Shown: positions 3,533 through 52,839 of the stretch, one piece after another
How the letters are laid out: each line of letters starts with the position of its first letter
Numbering within the stretch: the stretch's first letter is position 1
NCBI GenBank assembly: GCA_003212535.1
Contig: QCPO01000004.1
Coordinates: 1 to 64,000 of the forward strand
From: Prochlorococcus sp. AG-436-O11
Lineage (GTDB): Bacteria; Cyanobacteriota; Cyanobacteriia; PCC-6307; Cyanobiaceae
DNA length: 64,000 nt
Direction: 5' to 3'
The notes under the pieces: model-generated
Seen by the model: only the letters and a program-made list of their open reading frames with translations
Databases searched by the model: none
Told to the model about the DNA's origin: nothing
Made by a program: the position numbers and the translations under genes

Positions 3533-3547
3533 TTTAAAAAAAAAAAA

Positions 3548-4629: not shown

Positions 4630-4981
4630 TTAACCTTTTGACTCGCCTTTAGTAACCTTTTTAGGAAATGAAATTTTTTTTGACAACATTTGGACCCCTG
4701 TAAAAATCATCCATAAGATCCCCAGGGAGTTAAGAGATACCATATATTAATTCTCCATTCTCTCCAAGCGACTCTCCCTCATGTATTGACATTAACCAAT
4801 GAACATCATCTCTTGAGTAACCTAATAAATCTTTTGAAACTCTGTAAAATAAACCTCTAACAGCTGAAACAAACAATGGAAGGAAGACCCAAGGGGCCAA
4901 AGACTTATTTAATTGCCTAGAATTATAATAAAAATTAATTTCTGTTTTCCTCTTTTTTATTGATAGATTTAAGGTAGCCAA
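4630..4981 (-). pseudogene. PepSY-associated TM-like small membrane protein, broken by a 1-base frameshift
   Basis: The uninterrupted ORF is 83 residues (4730-4981), with a hydrophobic segment APWVFLPLFVSAVRGLFYR and the motif WLMSIHEGESLGE. These resemble short cyanobacterial proteins related to the PepSY-associated transmembrane family. It ends abruptly after ELIY. Removing one G of the GG (minus strand) at 4740-4741 continues the frame as YVSLNSLGILWMIFTGVQ and then a basic tail, to a stop at 4630-4632. That is the second membrane helix expected for this family. The reconstructed protein would be about 116 residues. Either the gene is disrupted here or the sequence carries an indel error. 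Function is unknown; a small membrane protein is all I can support. Confidence 0.7.
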
Positions 4982-39342: not shown

Positions 39343-40701
39343 ATGATTAAAAATATTTCTAGGAAAAAACTTTTTTTATCTTTTATTTCTTTACTTTTTA
39401 CTTTTTTTGTATGGCAACAAGGTTTACAAGATAGCTTGAACAGACCATCTGTCTCTTTCGATATTAGTCAAAAAGAGCAGGAAATTGCAGAATTAGCTCT
39501 CCAATCATTGCCAACAAATCTTAAAAAATATGTTAGTGCAAATGATCCAGTTGAAGAAATCAATAATTCTCTTTCTAGTGTCTCTTTTGATGAACTAACA
39601 GAAAGAAATAAATTAATTTGGATAATTTCTTCAGACCTGCACAATTTTGAAATCGATCAAAACTTTTCTTATCAATTTAAAAATAAAAACTATAAATTAT
39701 TATTTGATGATTTAGAGAGGAAATCTAATGATAATTCATATAAACCTAATTATGACCAATTTGATTTATTTAAAGAAGATAGATTTTTATATCATTTAAT
39801 AAGCATAAAATTTGACTTTGATTCAAGTTCATTGATAACAAAATCACTTTCTCAAAGAATGTTTTTAAAAATATTAGCTATTAGGTTAATTCCATTATTT
39901 ACTATATTTCTTGGTTCGATTCTCGTTTTAAAAACATTATGGGCTTCTATCTCTTTGAGGAAAATTGTTTGGAAAGAATTTAAACCCTTAGATTTGGATT
40001 TAATAGATATGGTTTTATTAATCGCAGGAGGATTTGTTGTTTTAGGAGAAGTCGTTTCTCCTTTATTTTCAATTGGTTTAGTTGAATTTTTTTCTAAAGA
40101 TTTCTCAATTGAGTTGTCTCAAGCATTAAAAATATTTTTTGGATATCTGTTTATGGCTATCCCGCCATTATTAATTGTTTACTATCAAATCAAATCTTTA
40201 AATGGGGAATTCTTTCTTAAAAAAGATTATTTTCAGTTCAATGGCTTGCCAATTAAAGATGCATTAATTCAGGGTTTTAAAGGCTGGTTAATGGTCATAC
40301 CTTTTGTTTTATTGGTCTCATTAATTATGAATATTTTAATTGATAATCAAAATGGTAGTAATCCATTGCTAGAAATTGTGCTTAATACCGATAATTACTT
40401 TGCATTAACTCTTTTATTCTTGACGACCACACTTTTAGCACCTTTATTTGAAGAGATTATATTTCGTGGAATTTTACTGCCAATTTTATCAAGAGATTTT
40501 GGAATAATTTTAGGCATTTCAGTTTCTGCATTTATTTTTGCTTTGGCACATTTAAGTATCAGTGAAATGCCGCCATTATTAGTTTTAGGAATAGGACTAG
40601 GTATTACGAGAATTGTTTCGGGAAGTTTGCTCGCTTCAGTTATTATGCATTCTTTATGGAACGGATTGACTTTCTTGAATTTGTTATTATTAAGAACATA
40701 A
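39343..40701 (+). CDS. CPBP-family intramembrane metalloprotease (CAAX/Abi-like)
   Basis: This 452-residue membrane protein has an N-terminal signal-anchor helix, then a 130-residue soluble region and about seven further hydrophobic segments. The C-terminal CPBP domain carries FEEIIFRGILLP (the Glu-Glu-xxx-Arg motif), then FIFALAHLSI with His and ASVIMHSLWNGL with the last His, as in Rce1-like proteases. Such proteins cleave prenylated or small substrates, or protect from bacteriocins, but no substrate is known here. It is divergent from the histidine phosphatase gene and lies upstream of the ftsL-like gene. Confidence 0.85.
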   Translation: MIKNISRKKLFLSFISLLFTFFVWQQGLQDSLNRPSVSFDISQKEQEIAELALQSLPTNLKKYVSANDPVEEINNSLSSVSFDELTERNKLIWIISSDLHNFEIDQNFSYQFKNKNYKLLFDDLERKSNDNSYKPNYDQFDLFKEDRFLYHLISIKFDFDSSSLITKSLSQRMFLKILAIRLIPLFTIFLGSILVLKTLWASISLRKIVWKEFKPLDLDLIDMVLLIAGGFVVLGEVVSPLFSIGLVEFFSKDFSIELSQALKIFFGYLFMAIPPLLIVYYQIKSLNGEFFLKKDYFQFNGLPIKDALIQGFKGWLMVIPFVLLVSLIMNILIDNQNGSNPLLEIVLNTDNYFALTLLFLTTTLLAPLFEEIIFRGILLPILSRDFGIILGISVSAFIFALAHLSISEMPPLLVLGIGLGITRIVSGSLLASVIMHSLWNGLTFLNLLLLRT

Positions 40702-40788: not shown

Positions 40789-41210
40789 ATGAAAACTTTT
40801 GGGAATGAATATTTTTTAAAAAAAAAAGTTCATACGAAAGTAAAATAATTTCAAATAAAATATCATCATTAAAATTAATTCATAAAATATTTAATACCAT
40901 TAACATATCTTTATTAATATTAATTTTCATATTATTTTTTCTATCTTTTAATAGCCAACGGGAATGGTCTAACACTTATAAGATTTTATCTAAAACTAAA
41001 GCTAATAATAATAATCTGATCGATTATATTTCCAAAACCGAAGAGTTTTATATTAGTGAACTTGATTCTCTTAAGACTTTTAAAAAAACAACTCCTAAAG
41101 ATTTAATTTATATAGATAAGATTGAAGCAAAGAAAGAAAATTATTTTAAAAAAGAAATAAAAAATATCGTTGATGGATTAAAAGATAGTAGATATCAAAT
41201 TGGATATTAA
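40789..41210 (+). pseudogene. FtsL-like division protein gene split by a frameshift at an A10 tract
   Basis: An ORF begins at ATG 40789 (MKTFGNEYFLKKK) and in its own frame stops at 40846-40848. From the A10 run (40818-40827), the other frame stays open to TAA 41208-41210 with no start codon of its own. Joining them gives about 140 residues: a basic cytoplasmic start, one membrane helix (LLILIFILFFLSF), a polar stretch, and a Lys-rich region with coiled-coil potential. That layout and the place directly before ftsI suit FtsL. Reading needs one added A or a -1 shift. Either slippage occurs, or the gene is broken, or an A was lost in sequencing. The TAATG overlap couples it to ftsI. Confidence 0.7.
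40818..40827 (+). other. A10 homopolymer at the FtsL-like frameshift, candidate slippery site
   Basis: Ten A residues follow TTTTTT. The upstream frame reads tta aaa aaa aaa gtt, so a ribosome slipping back one base on AAA AAA would enter the long downstream frame. RNA polymerase adding one A would do the same. This is a sequence observation; no slippage has been shown. Confidence 0.6.
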
Positions 41211-42961
41211 TGAAAAAACGTAAAAAAATTGTTCATCTTTTACCTCTTGAAGATAAGAGATTTAAATTAACTTATATTTTCTTATTGATCATAATATTTA
41301 CTTTGTTTGGCAGACTAGTTAACTTGCAAGTTTTTAGTGCTTCGGATTTAAAAAAAAAAGCAAGGTCAATACAATCTTCTAGAACTATTTCTTTGAAAAC
41401 AAGAAGATCAATAGTTGATAGGAATAATCGATTGATTGCTTATGATAAATCATTATATAAATTATGGGCTCATCCCAAATATTTTCACTTTCCAGGCGAT
41501 TCCATTAATAAAGTTCGAAGAGTTGAAGAAGTCGTTAAGAAATTATCACCTATTCTGGGTCTTAAAGATGAACTTCTATTGGCAAAATTTAATAATAATA
41601 GTATTGGTTTCGAACTTTCCAATCAAATTACTGAAGACAAAGCAAATAAGATTAGAAAGCTACAAATAAGTGGCCTTGATTTATTTAAATATTCTCAAAG
41701 ATATTATCCTCAAGGAAAACTTTACTCTAATGTGGTTGGTTTTGTTAATGACGAGAACAAAGGTTCAGCAGGCTTAGAACTACATTTGGATCGTCAAATT
41801 AAAGTTTTAAATAAAAGTAACTTAATAAAAAGAGGGGGAGATGGAACTCCCCTTCCAGATAATTCTGGGCCAAGAGATTTTATTTCTGATTACAAGAGTT
41901 TAGGTTTAACGATAGATTCAAAATTACAGAAAGCTTCATTTGAAGCTTTATCTAAGCAGGTAATGAATTGGAAAGCAAAGAAGGGCTTTGCAATAGTTAT
42001 GGATGTAACAAATGGCGAGATTCTATCCTTAGCATCGGTCCCTTCTTATGATCCAAATAAATTCTGGCAGTATAATCCTGAATTGTTCAAGGGGTGGTAT
42101 TCGCAAGATTTATTTGAGCCTGGTTCAACTTTTAAACCTATAAATTTGGCTTTAGCATTAGAAGAAAAAGTAATCCAAAAAGATGGCTTAGTAGAAGATA
42201 TTGGTAAGGTTAATGTTGGAGGTTGGACACTCTCCAATTGGGATAAAAAAGGTAATGGATATATTAATTATCCAGAAGTTTTGCAAGTTTCAAGTAATGT
42301 TGGGATGGTAAAAATAATGCAAAAATTAGATCCTTTAATTTTTTGGAATAGGTTGGAAAAATTAGGCATAAATAAAAAATTAGAGACTGACTCATTTGAA
42401 TCCACTGCAGGCCATCTAAAAAGAAAAGAGTTTTTTGTAAATCAATCAATTGAGCCAGCAGTTGCATCTTTTGGTAAAGGATTTTCAATCTCACCAATGA
42501 AGTTGGTCCAAATTCATGCTGCTTTAGCTAACGGTGGTTTTGAAGTAACCCCTCATGTAACCTTAAATTTTAAAGACTCACAAAAACAATATTCACAAAA
42601 ACAATTCTTTTCTACTGAAGTTTCACGAATTGTTCTTGAATGGATGGAGAGTGTTGTTGAAAATGGCAGTGGAGCTGGGGTAAGAATTAATGGATATAGA
42701 ATCGCGGGGAAAACAGGCACTTCACAAAAAGCAAAAAATGGAAAATATACCAATAAAAAAGTTTGTAGTTTTGTAGCAACCTTGCCAGTTAATAATCCAA
42801 AGTATGTTGTTCTAGTAGTTATTGATGAGCCATCTAAATCATATGCCTATGGTTCAACAGTCGCAGTGCCAGTAGCTAAAGAAATTATTGAAAGCTTAAT
42901 TGTGATTGAAAAAATACCACCAAAGATGAAAGAGAATAAGAGAATTGTTAAAAAACCCTAA
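41210..42961 (+). CDS. ftsI: Penicillin-binding protein FtsI (septal transpeptidase)
   Basis: FtsI is the septal class B PBP that crosslinks peptidoglycan at division. The 583-residue protein has one N-terminal membrane helix (residues about 20-40), a dimerisation domain, and a transpeptidase domain. The catalytic motifs are STFK near 306-309 (EPGSTFKP), SSN near 361-363, and KTGTS near 501. No PASTA domains are present. The start ATG overlaps the TAA of the upstream FtsL-like frame (TAATG), an arrangement seen in cell-wall gene clusters. Transaldolase follows after about 90 bases. The match is strong; FtsI rather than another PBP2 is supported by the FtsL-like neighbour. Confidence 0.92.
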   Translation: MKKRKKIVHLLPLEDKRFKLTYIFLLIIIFTLFGRLVNLQVFSASDLKKKARSIQSSRTISLKTRRSIVDRNNRLIAYDKSLYKLWAHPKYFHFPGDSINKVRRVEEVVKKLSPILGLKDELLLAKFNNNSIGFELSNQITEDKANKIRKLQISGLDLFKYSQRYYPQGKLYSNVVGFVNDENKGSAGLELHLDRQIKVLNKSNLIKRGGDGTPLPDNSGPRDFISDYKSLGLTIDSKLQKASFEALSKQVMNWKAKKGFAIVMDVTNGEILSLASVPSYDPNKFWQYNPELFKGWYSQDLFEPGSTFKPINLALALEEKVIQKDGLVEDIGKVNVGGWTLSNWDKKGNGYINYPEVLQVSSNVGMVKIMQKLDPLIFWNRLEKLGINKKLETDSFESTAGHLKRKEFFVNQSIEPAVASFGKGFSISPMKLVQIHAALANGGFEVTPHVTLNFKDSQKQYSQKQFFSTEVSRIVLEWMESVVENGSGAGVRINGYRIAGKTGTSQKAKNGKYTNKKVCSFVATLPVNNPKYVVLVVIDEPSKSYAYGSTVAVPVAKEIIESLIVIEKIPPKMKENKRIVKKP

Positions 42962-52065: not shown

Positions 52066-52839
52066 TTATGGACATATAAAATTCCATTGTCTTAATGTTG
52101 TTTTGCTTCTTCTCCAAGAATTAAATTCATTATTTAATTCATATGTACATAGATTGGAGATTTCAATATTTGTATTGGGAATATTTTCATTTACAAGTTG
52201 CATGTAAGCATATTTTCTGAGATCTAGCTGAATTAAGTTTTGATTTTTAGCGATATCCAAATTCCTCATATTAAATATATTTTCAGTATTCTTTGGGGAG
52301 TGGGTTAATCCGTTATCTCTTAATCTTTTATCAAATTCCTTGAGGGTTTTTTTATCAACAAGATAATTTTTCTTTGATATTGATGGGCCTATGGCAACAA
52401 GTAGATCATCTCTTGAACTTCCTATTTTATCAAATATTTTAAGTAGATTGTTTATTATTTTTTTTTCTAAACCCTTCCTTCCACAGTGAACAGCGGCAAC
52501 AAATCTTTTACTTTTATCTGCGAACAAAATTGGCATGCAATCAGCAGTATAAATCCACAAATTTTGATTTAATTTATCGGAAACTATACCATCAGCTTCA
52601 ATTTGATTCCATTTTTGAGTACCTGATCCAAAAACTATTTTATCACTGTGGATCTGCTTTAAAACACAATTTAGATAATTTTTCCTGAATACTATTGGTG
52701 GAGATTTTTCAGAGTTTAATTTTGTAAAAAAACCATGCGTAAATTTATTTTTATAGAGAATAGGGGATGAGTAATATATAAATTTTTTGTTCTTAAAAGA
52801 AATTTCTGTTTTTGAGAAATTTATTTCGTTATATTGAAT
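52066..52839 (-). CDS. pgeF: Purine nucleoside phosphorylase/laccase-domain protein (YfiH/PgeF, DUF152), apparent ATT start
   Basis: The domain is complete when read upstream of the usual start codons. It contains THGFFTKLNSE, KQIHSDKIVFGSG, WNQIEADGIVSDK, the ligand pair in LWIYTADCMPIL and HCGRKGLEKKI, all typical of the DUF152/YfiH family. YfiH-like proteins use Cys and His residues for Zn and metabolise nucleosides, or edit peptidoglycan precursors. The frame between the upstream stop and residue 94 contains no ATG, GTG or TTG. An AGGAGG at 52846-52851 stands six bases before ATT at 52839, which I take as the start, giving 257 residues. A start at TTG 52560 would remove a third of the fold. 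The gene follows the Tab2 gene on the same strand. Confidence 0.8.
   Translation of the reverse strand: MQYNEINFSKTEISFKNKKFIYYSSPILYKNKFTHGFFTKLNSEKSPPIVFRKNYLNCVLKQIHSDKIVFGSGTQKWNQIEADGIVSDKLNQNLWIYTADCMPILFADKSKRFVAAVHCGRKGLEKKIINNLLKIFDKIGSSRDDLLVAIGPSISKKNYLVDKKTLKEFDKRLRDNGLTHSPKNTENIFNMRNLDIAKNQNLIQLDLRKYAYMQLVNENIPNTNIEISNLCTYELNNEFNSWRRSKTTLRQWNFICP

Follow-up and report, generated by a model that had tools for sequence, protein, structure and literature searches.

A frame break at an A10 tract in an FtsL-like gene of Prochlorococcus and its possible read-through by slippage

How might a protein be made from a long open frame that has no start codon of its own? The question is raised by a locus next to ftsI in a 64,000-nucleotide stretch, referred to below as the window, of the Prochlorococcus draft genome AG-436-O11 (here G000; 1,279,919 bases, 36 contigs, 79.9% complete). 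The upstream neighbour of the locus is a gene for a Rce1/CAAX-type protease (39343-40701). The ORF reading of the window then gives on the + strand a frame of 19 codons (40789-40848), running from an ATG to the TAA at 40846-40848. A second + strand frame (40809-41210; 133 codons plus TAA) is open from the TGA at 40806-40808 through the TAA at 41208-41210, its first codon being the ATA at 40809-40811, right after the TGA. A scan of this whole frame found no ATG, GTG or TTG. It overlaps ftsI (41210-42961, + strand; Transpeptidase, E 7e-64) in a TAATG at 41208-41212, where the ATG of ftsI begins at 41210. The proposed slippage site is an A10 tract at 40818-40827 (+ strand), with T6 directly before it. 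Both frames fuse into a product of 140 residues if one A is added or if the ribosome shifts by -1 on A AAA AAA. The original prediction had described this layout, that is, a first frame closing after 19 codons, a second one open to ftsI without a start codon, the TAATG overlap and the 140-residue product, and the coordinates bear it out.

The frame break in relatives of the window genome

A search of 266 Prochlorococcus genomes detected the downstream protein in 202, including 86 of the 87 genomes with at least 90% completeness. The nearest relatives, G062, G119 (the single-cell genome AG-402-K10) and G146, have 80-82% protein identity to the window protein. All three carry the same 133-codon open frame devoid of ATG, GTG and TTG, with A10 at an equal distance from the stop. 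The ATG and its frame as far as the A-run are retained in all four genomes, and the length from ATG to stop is 419 nt in each. In a tree on ftsI codons, built on 83 of 87 loci with duplicate genomes included (two loci were dropped as too short and two for a broken ftsI), the four broken genomes form one group with a support of 1.0. Since three further species carry the same break, it is more than chance, and the frame break at A10 in the FtsL-like gene is confirmed as real.

The 5' ends could be classed for 179 of the 202 matching genomes, the other 23 standing outside this census; 27 named loci (L033-L059) that overlap with other genomes counted were also excluded. The gene was intact at 166 loci, with an ATG giving at least 138 codons, and four loci belong to the clade with the shared break. 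Other 5' lesions are sporadic across the genus. G041 has A8 where its kin have A9 and is out of frame; G226 has two frame offsets, at A7 and at A11. A different, new in-frame ATG accompanies the 5' lesion in G021, G035 and G046, and in G128 the ATG is changed to ATC with a TTG just before it. In G032 (locus L063, 99% complete) a T to A change makes a TAA at codon 10, just before A11, and no in-frame ATG follows this TAA in the gene. A contig edge cuts the gene in G140 and G147, which were scored neither as intact nor as broken. Several of the lesion genomes thus have another canonical start, whereas the four-species clade has none.

The idea that the break is A10 standing in place of A11 is corrected by a comparison of A-runs in the homologues. 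The longest run in the N-terminal region is 10 in 77 of the 166 intact loci, 9 in 51, 8 in 22 and 4-7 in 16. Because A10 itself is in frame in intact relatives, a shortening from A11 to A10 does not by itself describe the lesion. Alignment to intact relatives places the loss of one base just after the run (GTTTCATA versus GTTCATA or GTTTATA), and a lost A would fit the break equally well.

Other frame breaks and long A-runs were also seen. In G052 (AG-686-P16; L058 and L090) ftsI is broken at codon 52, where its own A-run is A7 as against A8 to A10 in relatives; this break occurs in one genome only and is possibly an error. In the window, ftsI carries A10 in frame at the matching site, 41350-41359. 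A small membrane-protein gene at 4633-4939 (- strand) is split into two frames of 66 and 36 aa, with no homopolymer at the break, and is intact in G030 (102 aa). At 3536-3547, a stretch of twelve identical bases (T12 on the - strand) lies inside a 501-codon open frame. A window-wide search for split genes against 97 ORFs of G030, which is too coarse to detect ftsL itself, matched 90 of them and found one split.

Constraint on the gene and its likeness to FtsL

Within the clade, the downstream frame has dN/dS values of 0.22-0.42, and in all six pairs codon position 3 shows more change than either of the other positions. For the core of the protein, dN/dS is 0.19-0.42 in the clade as compared with a median of 0.21 in intact pairs (5-95%: 0.13-0.33; 5774 pairs of like divergence), which suggests that constraint on the clade gene is similar or slightly relaxed. 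In a neutral simulation with an assumed tree, an assumed composition, a ti/tv of 2 and no indels, all four frames stayed open in 0 of 2000 runs, and 13.9 stops were expected in all. Rescue by a second intact copy was rejected, as each matching genome, including the 99% complete G146, has a single match at E ≤ 0.001. The break common to four species, the purifying selection, the single match per genome and the conserved segment from ATG to A10 described below together provide good support for the view, put forward in the original prediction, that the split gene is functional rather than dead.

The membrane segment of the protein (IFNTINISLLILIFILFFL; 40887-40943, + strand) is its best 19-residue Kyte-Doolittle window, with a mean of 2.56. 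By hydropathy the protein therefore has the one membrane segment near the N-terminus that is a feature of FtsL, and its gene lies directly upstream of ftsI, as an ftsL gene does. The predicted structure is a long helix (mean pLDDT 72.9, pTM 0.30). The Pfam FtsL model PF04999 had no match in the protein, nor in the genome at E ≤ 10, and this model is insensitive, passing its own cut-off in one of 14 control genomes. As a candidate for FtsL or DivIC by profile nothing exceeded the cut-off, and two weak DivIC matches (E 1.74 and 3.58) sit elsewhere. Among solved structures, one sequence search gave nothing credible (best E 0.65) and another gave none at E ≤ 10; a search by fold, using the model with its pTM of 0.30, likewise gave none at E ≤ 10. 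Of the name FtsL in the original prediction, the place beside ftsI and the single membrane segment stand, and the matches to Pfam FtsL and to solved structures were not found. The name thus appears to be one of position and topology, and we use "FtsL-like". The protein is found family-wide: by profile search, 88 of 101 genomes of the family, from 52 of 59 genera, have one copy of the gene each. In distant homologues a long ORF comes directly after the gene in 7 of 7 cases, and tblastn in other genera placed ftsI on the same strand adjoining the gene at 26 of 26 loci (25 within 200 nt and one at 207 nt).

How the gene may be read

A break common to related species, in a gene whose protein is under selection, suggests that read-through probably occurs, by slippage on the A's. 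A one-base lesion at or next to the A-run would have arisen in the common ancestor of the four Prochlorococcus species, in a single-copy gene for an FtsL-like bitopic membrane protein directly upstream of ftsI. Translation would still begin at ATG 40789. When RNA polymerase transcribes A10, the rA:dT hybrid may slip back, leaving an extra A in a fraction of the mRNAs. Slipped mRNAs would then give the full 140-residue protein and unslipped ones a 19-residue peptide, with the reduced yield being tolerated or useful. An identical protein would result if the ribosome shifted by -1 on A AAA AAA, and this may contribute, RNA polymerase being more likely than the ribosome to be the slipping agent. 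We infer initiation at ATG 40789, the slippage, its level and the tolerance of a low dose from the sequences. That slippage at A10 adds one A and so yields the 140-residue protein is, on balance, what we lean towards, and the A10 tract as a working element of the gene appears to be the most likely reading.

Two features of slippage-rescued genes are present at this locus, namely a break that falls at about nine A's or more (A10 in all four genomes) and that is kept across species while the downstream frame is under selection. From the ATG through A10 and the following GTT, only 2 of 42 columns vary in the clade, fewer than in any other 42-nt window of the gene (median 8). For comparison, 20 of 94 columns just upstream of the ATG and 34 of 109 core third positions are variable. 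At the upstream rate, the binomial probability with columns treated as independent is 0.003 for the whole segment and 0.09 for the A10 alone (no change in 10 columns). The 5' segments of clade members differ pairwise by 0.024-0.048, much as in intact pairs (median 0.048, n 6132), where the ATG is the start. This conservation suggests that ATG 40789 and the tract are still in use. The direction of the change needed, one added A, also fits, because one study found insertion of a single nucleotide to be the prevailing transcription error at A/T runs, with an exponential increase as the run lengthens, although it reports no frame as restored in its own data (PMC5574713). As to yield, tssM and Shigella genes are reported to slip at about 15-55% (PMC4256274), and in endosymbionts 12-50% of transcripts are reported as corrected (PMC5009743).

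Other observations count against this reading or lend it no help. A10 occurs in 77 of the 166 intact relatives, and so its presence by itself proves nothing. Between A10 and the LIH/membrane part, the clade has 17 codons without any sign of constraint (per pair, synonymous differences average 0.5 and nonsynonymous ones 3.7, as against 2.2 and 4.8 in intact pairs), which therefore give no support for translation from the ATG. Since slippage on the A-run could not cure the stop of G032, 5' breakage may be tolerated in another way. A promoter scan returned 5 sites versus 6.9 expected.

The main rival to slippage is initiation at a non-AUG codon in the downstream frame, either AUA 40809-40811 or an AUU just before the membrane segment, with the A10 incidental and the product shortened at a weakly constrained N-terminus. 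All four genomes have the ATA at 40809, and thus a conserved codon of the AUU/AUA/AUC type at the start of the frame, as well as the ATT of the LIH codons. Constraint on the N-terminal part is weak in intact relatives and not visible in the clade. The stop of G032 lies beyond the cure of slippage, and the new ATGs of G021, G035 and G046 and the TTG of G128 imply that the start site is evolutionarily mobile. The rival gains further credit from a second gene. A start-codon test of the window flagged 13 of 89 ORFs, 11 of them shadows of longer ORFs; the remaining two were the FtsL-like gene and a PF02578 gene at 52069-52839 (- strand), which we take to be pgeF and which has no ATG, GTG or TTG start. 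Among the best 30 pgeF loci (L285-L314) of 51 matching genomes in 61 searched, 26 have ATT as the aligned first codon, 2 have ATA and 2 have ATC. Of these best loci, 27 lack a canonical start upstream in frame or within 15 codons, and 27 have AGGAG no more than 18 nt before the first codon. Non-AUG initiation behind AGGAG thus seems to be in use in the genus, which makes it more credible for the FtsL-like gene; what looks like a genus-wide AUU-type start codon in pgeF is perhaps a separate finding.

Pairing energies tell against non-AUG initiation in the FtsL-like gene. With an assumed 16S tail, pairing is weak before the AUA (-4.2 to -2.7 kcal/mol) and the AUU (-1.2 to -1.5), as compared with -12.2 kcal/mol before pgeF, so that by this measure neither codon has a strong Shine-Dalgarno site; with the same assumed tail, ATG 40789 has no pairing before it either. 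Moreover, no part of the gene varies less than the segment from ATG to A10, which would be unexpected for a spent leader, although the 20 nt before the ATA (1 of 20 columns variable) are slight evidence when taken alone. Given the weak pairing, we regard non-AUG initiation as an unlikely, if serious, contender.

A more elaborate version of slippage would make the tract part of a clade-specific recoding element, in which A10 lies in the loop of a hairpin three bases after the ATG and holds the FtsL-like protein at a low dose set by slippage. If true, hairpin and A10 would together be a dosage control on a division-cluster gene in a free-living phototroph. The possible RNA hairpin (40795-40841, + strand) pairs 40795-40801 with 40835-40841 and 40805-40810 with 40828-40833, and in the window the stretch from 40789 to 40850 has an unusually stable fold (z -3.5 and -4.0 in two runs). 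Thirteen pairs hold in all four genomes, two of them through one-sided changes and none through two-sided ones. Single-sequence z values are lower in magnitude in G062 (-1.9), G119 (-1.0, with a different best fold) and G146 (-2.3). Among 60 sampled of the 166 intact relatives, the mean z is -0.15 and 3 are at -2.0 or lower. Variable columns are about equally frequent in paired (2 of 26) and unpaired (4 of 36) positions. To our knowledge, the placement of the hairpin is unlike that of known stimulators. With two-sided changes missing, paired and unpaired positions varying alike, z ranging from -4.0 to -1.0 and 3 of 60 intact relatives folding similarly, the hairpin was rejected as an established element and is suggestive only, and such a recoding element seems to us rather improbable.

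Returning to slippage at the tract, the ribosome alone might do the work by -1 frameshifting on A AAA AAA, with faithful transcription. The heptamer is in the right phase (TTA AAA AAA AAA from 40816), and A_AAA_AAA is among the known shift motifs (PMC3711429). Ten A's nevertheless exceed what a heptamer needs, and a 3' RNA stimulator is absent downstream of the tract (40828-40878, -0.5 kcal/mol, z 0.21; 40816-40895, z 0.60), and we think frameshifting alone more doubtful still. Finally, a true A11 in the genomes or a pseudogene in the clade might be entertained because the assemblies are drafts, G119 comes from a single cell and the window genome is 80% complete, but four genomes carry the common break, miscalls are indicated to be rare by the 166 loci, out of 179, that stay in frame with A-runs of 4-10, and the simulation and dN/dS values given above point to a live gene, so that sequencing error and dead gene were rejected; the break is probably neither, and we consider this explanation highly improbable.

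Comparison with known systems

Genes of the infC type have AUU start codons. They are the model for AUU or AUA initiation in the FtsL-like gene, with the difference that the candidate starts here are without a strong Shine-Dalgarno site.

For slippage at A10, the nearest parallels are conserved frameshifted genes at poly(A) tracts, which were reportedly described in Buchnera and Blochmannia by Tamas in 2008 and Wernegreen in 2010. The likeness lies in a single indel at a long A-run of an A+T-rich genome, a break common to several species and a gene otherwise intact and under selection (PMC3017870, PMC5009743). Those hosts are insect endosymbionts with strongly reduced genomes, for which poly(A)-repaired conserved frame breaks have been described, whereas here the host is a marine cyanobacterium and the gene lies beside ftsI. 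The break described here is also about 10 codons from the start, and the lesion may sit beside the run. If slippage is true, such breaks can become fixed and persist in a free-living lineage, and gene calling limited to ATG, GTG and TTG would miss the product. In the literature covered, which is partial, there was no report of Prochlorococcus slippage, homopolymer frameshift or FtsL frameshift matching this case, and the main text of the GeneTack paper does not mention Prochlorococcus or ftsL.

A second parallel is tssM1 of Citrobacter rodentium, in which a premature stop after a poly-A run is overcome by slippage to give the full-length protein (PMC4256274). There, slippage and two functional products were experimentally shown; here, slippage is proposed from sequence, and the short product would have 19 residues.

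The FtsL of PF04999, lastly, resembles the protein described here in its small size, its single membrane segment, its long predicted helix and the place of its gene just before ftsI. The present protein differs in having no match to that profile, and FtsL is given as absent or undetected in cyanobacteria in a review and a research paper (PMC7766704, PMC4748335). The locus thereby draws attention to a family-wide protein beside ftsI in a phylum described as lacking FtsL.
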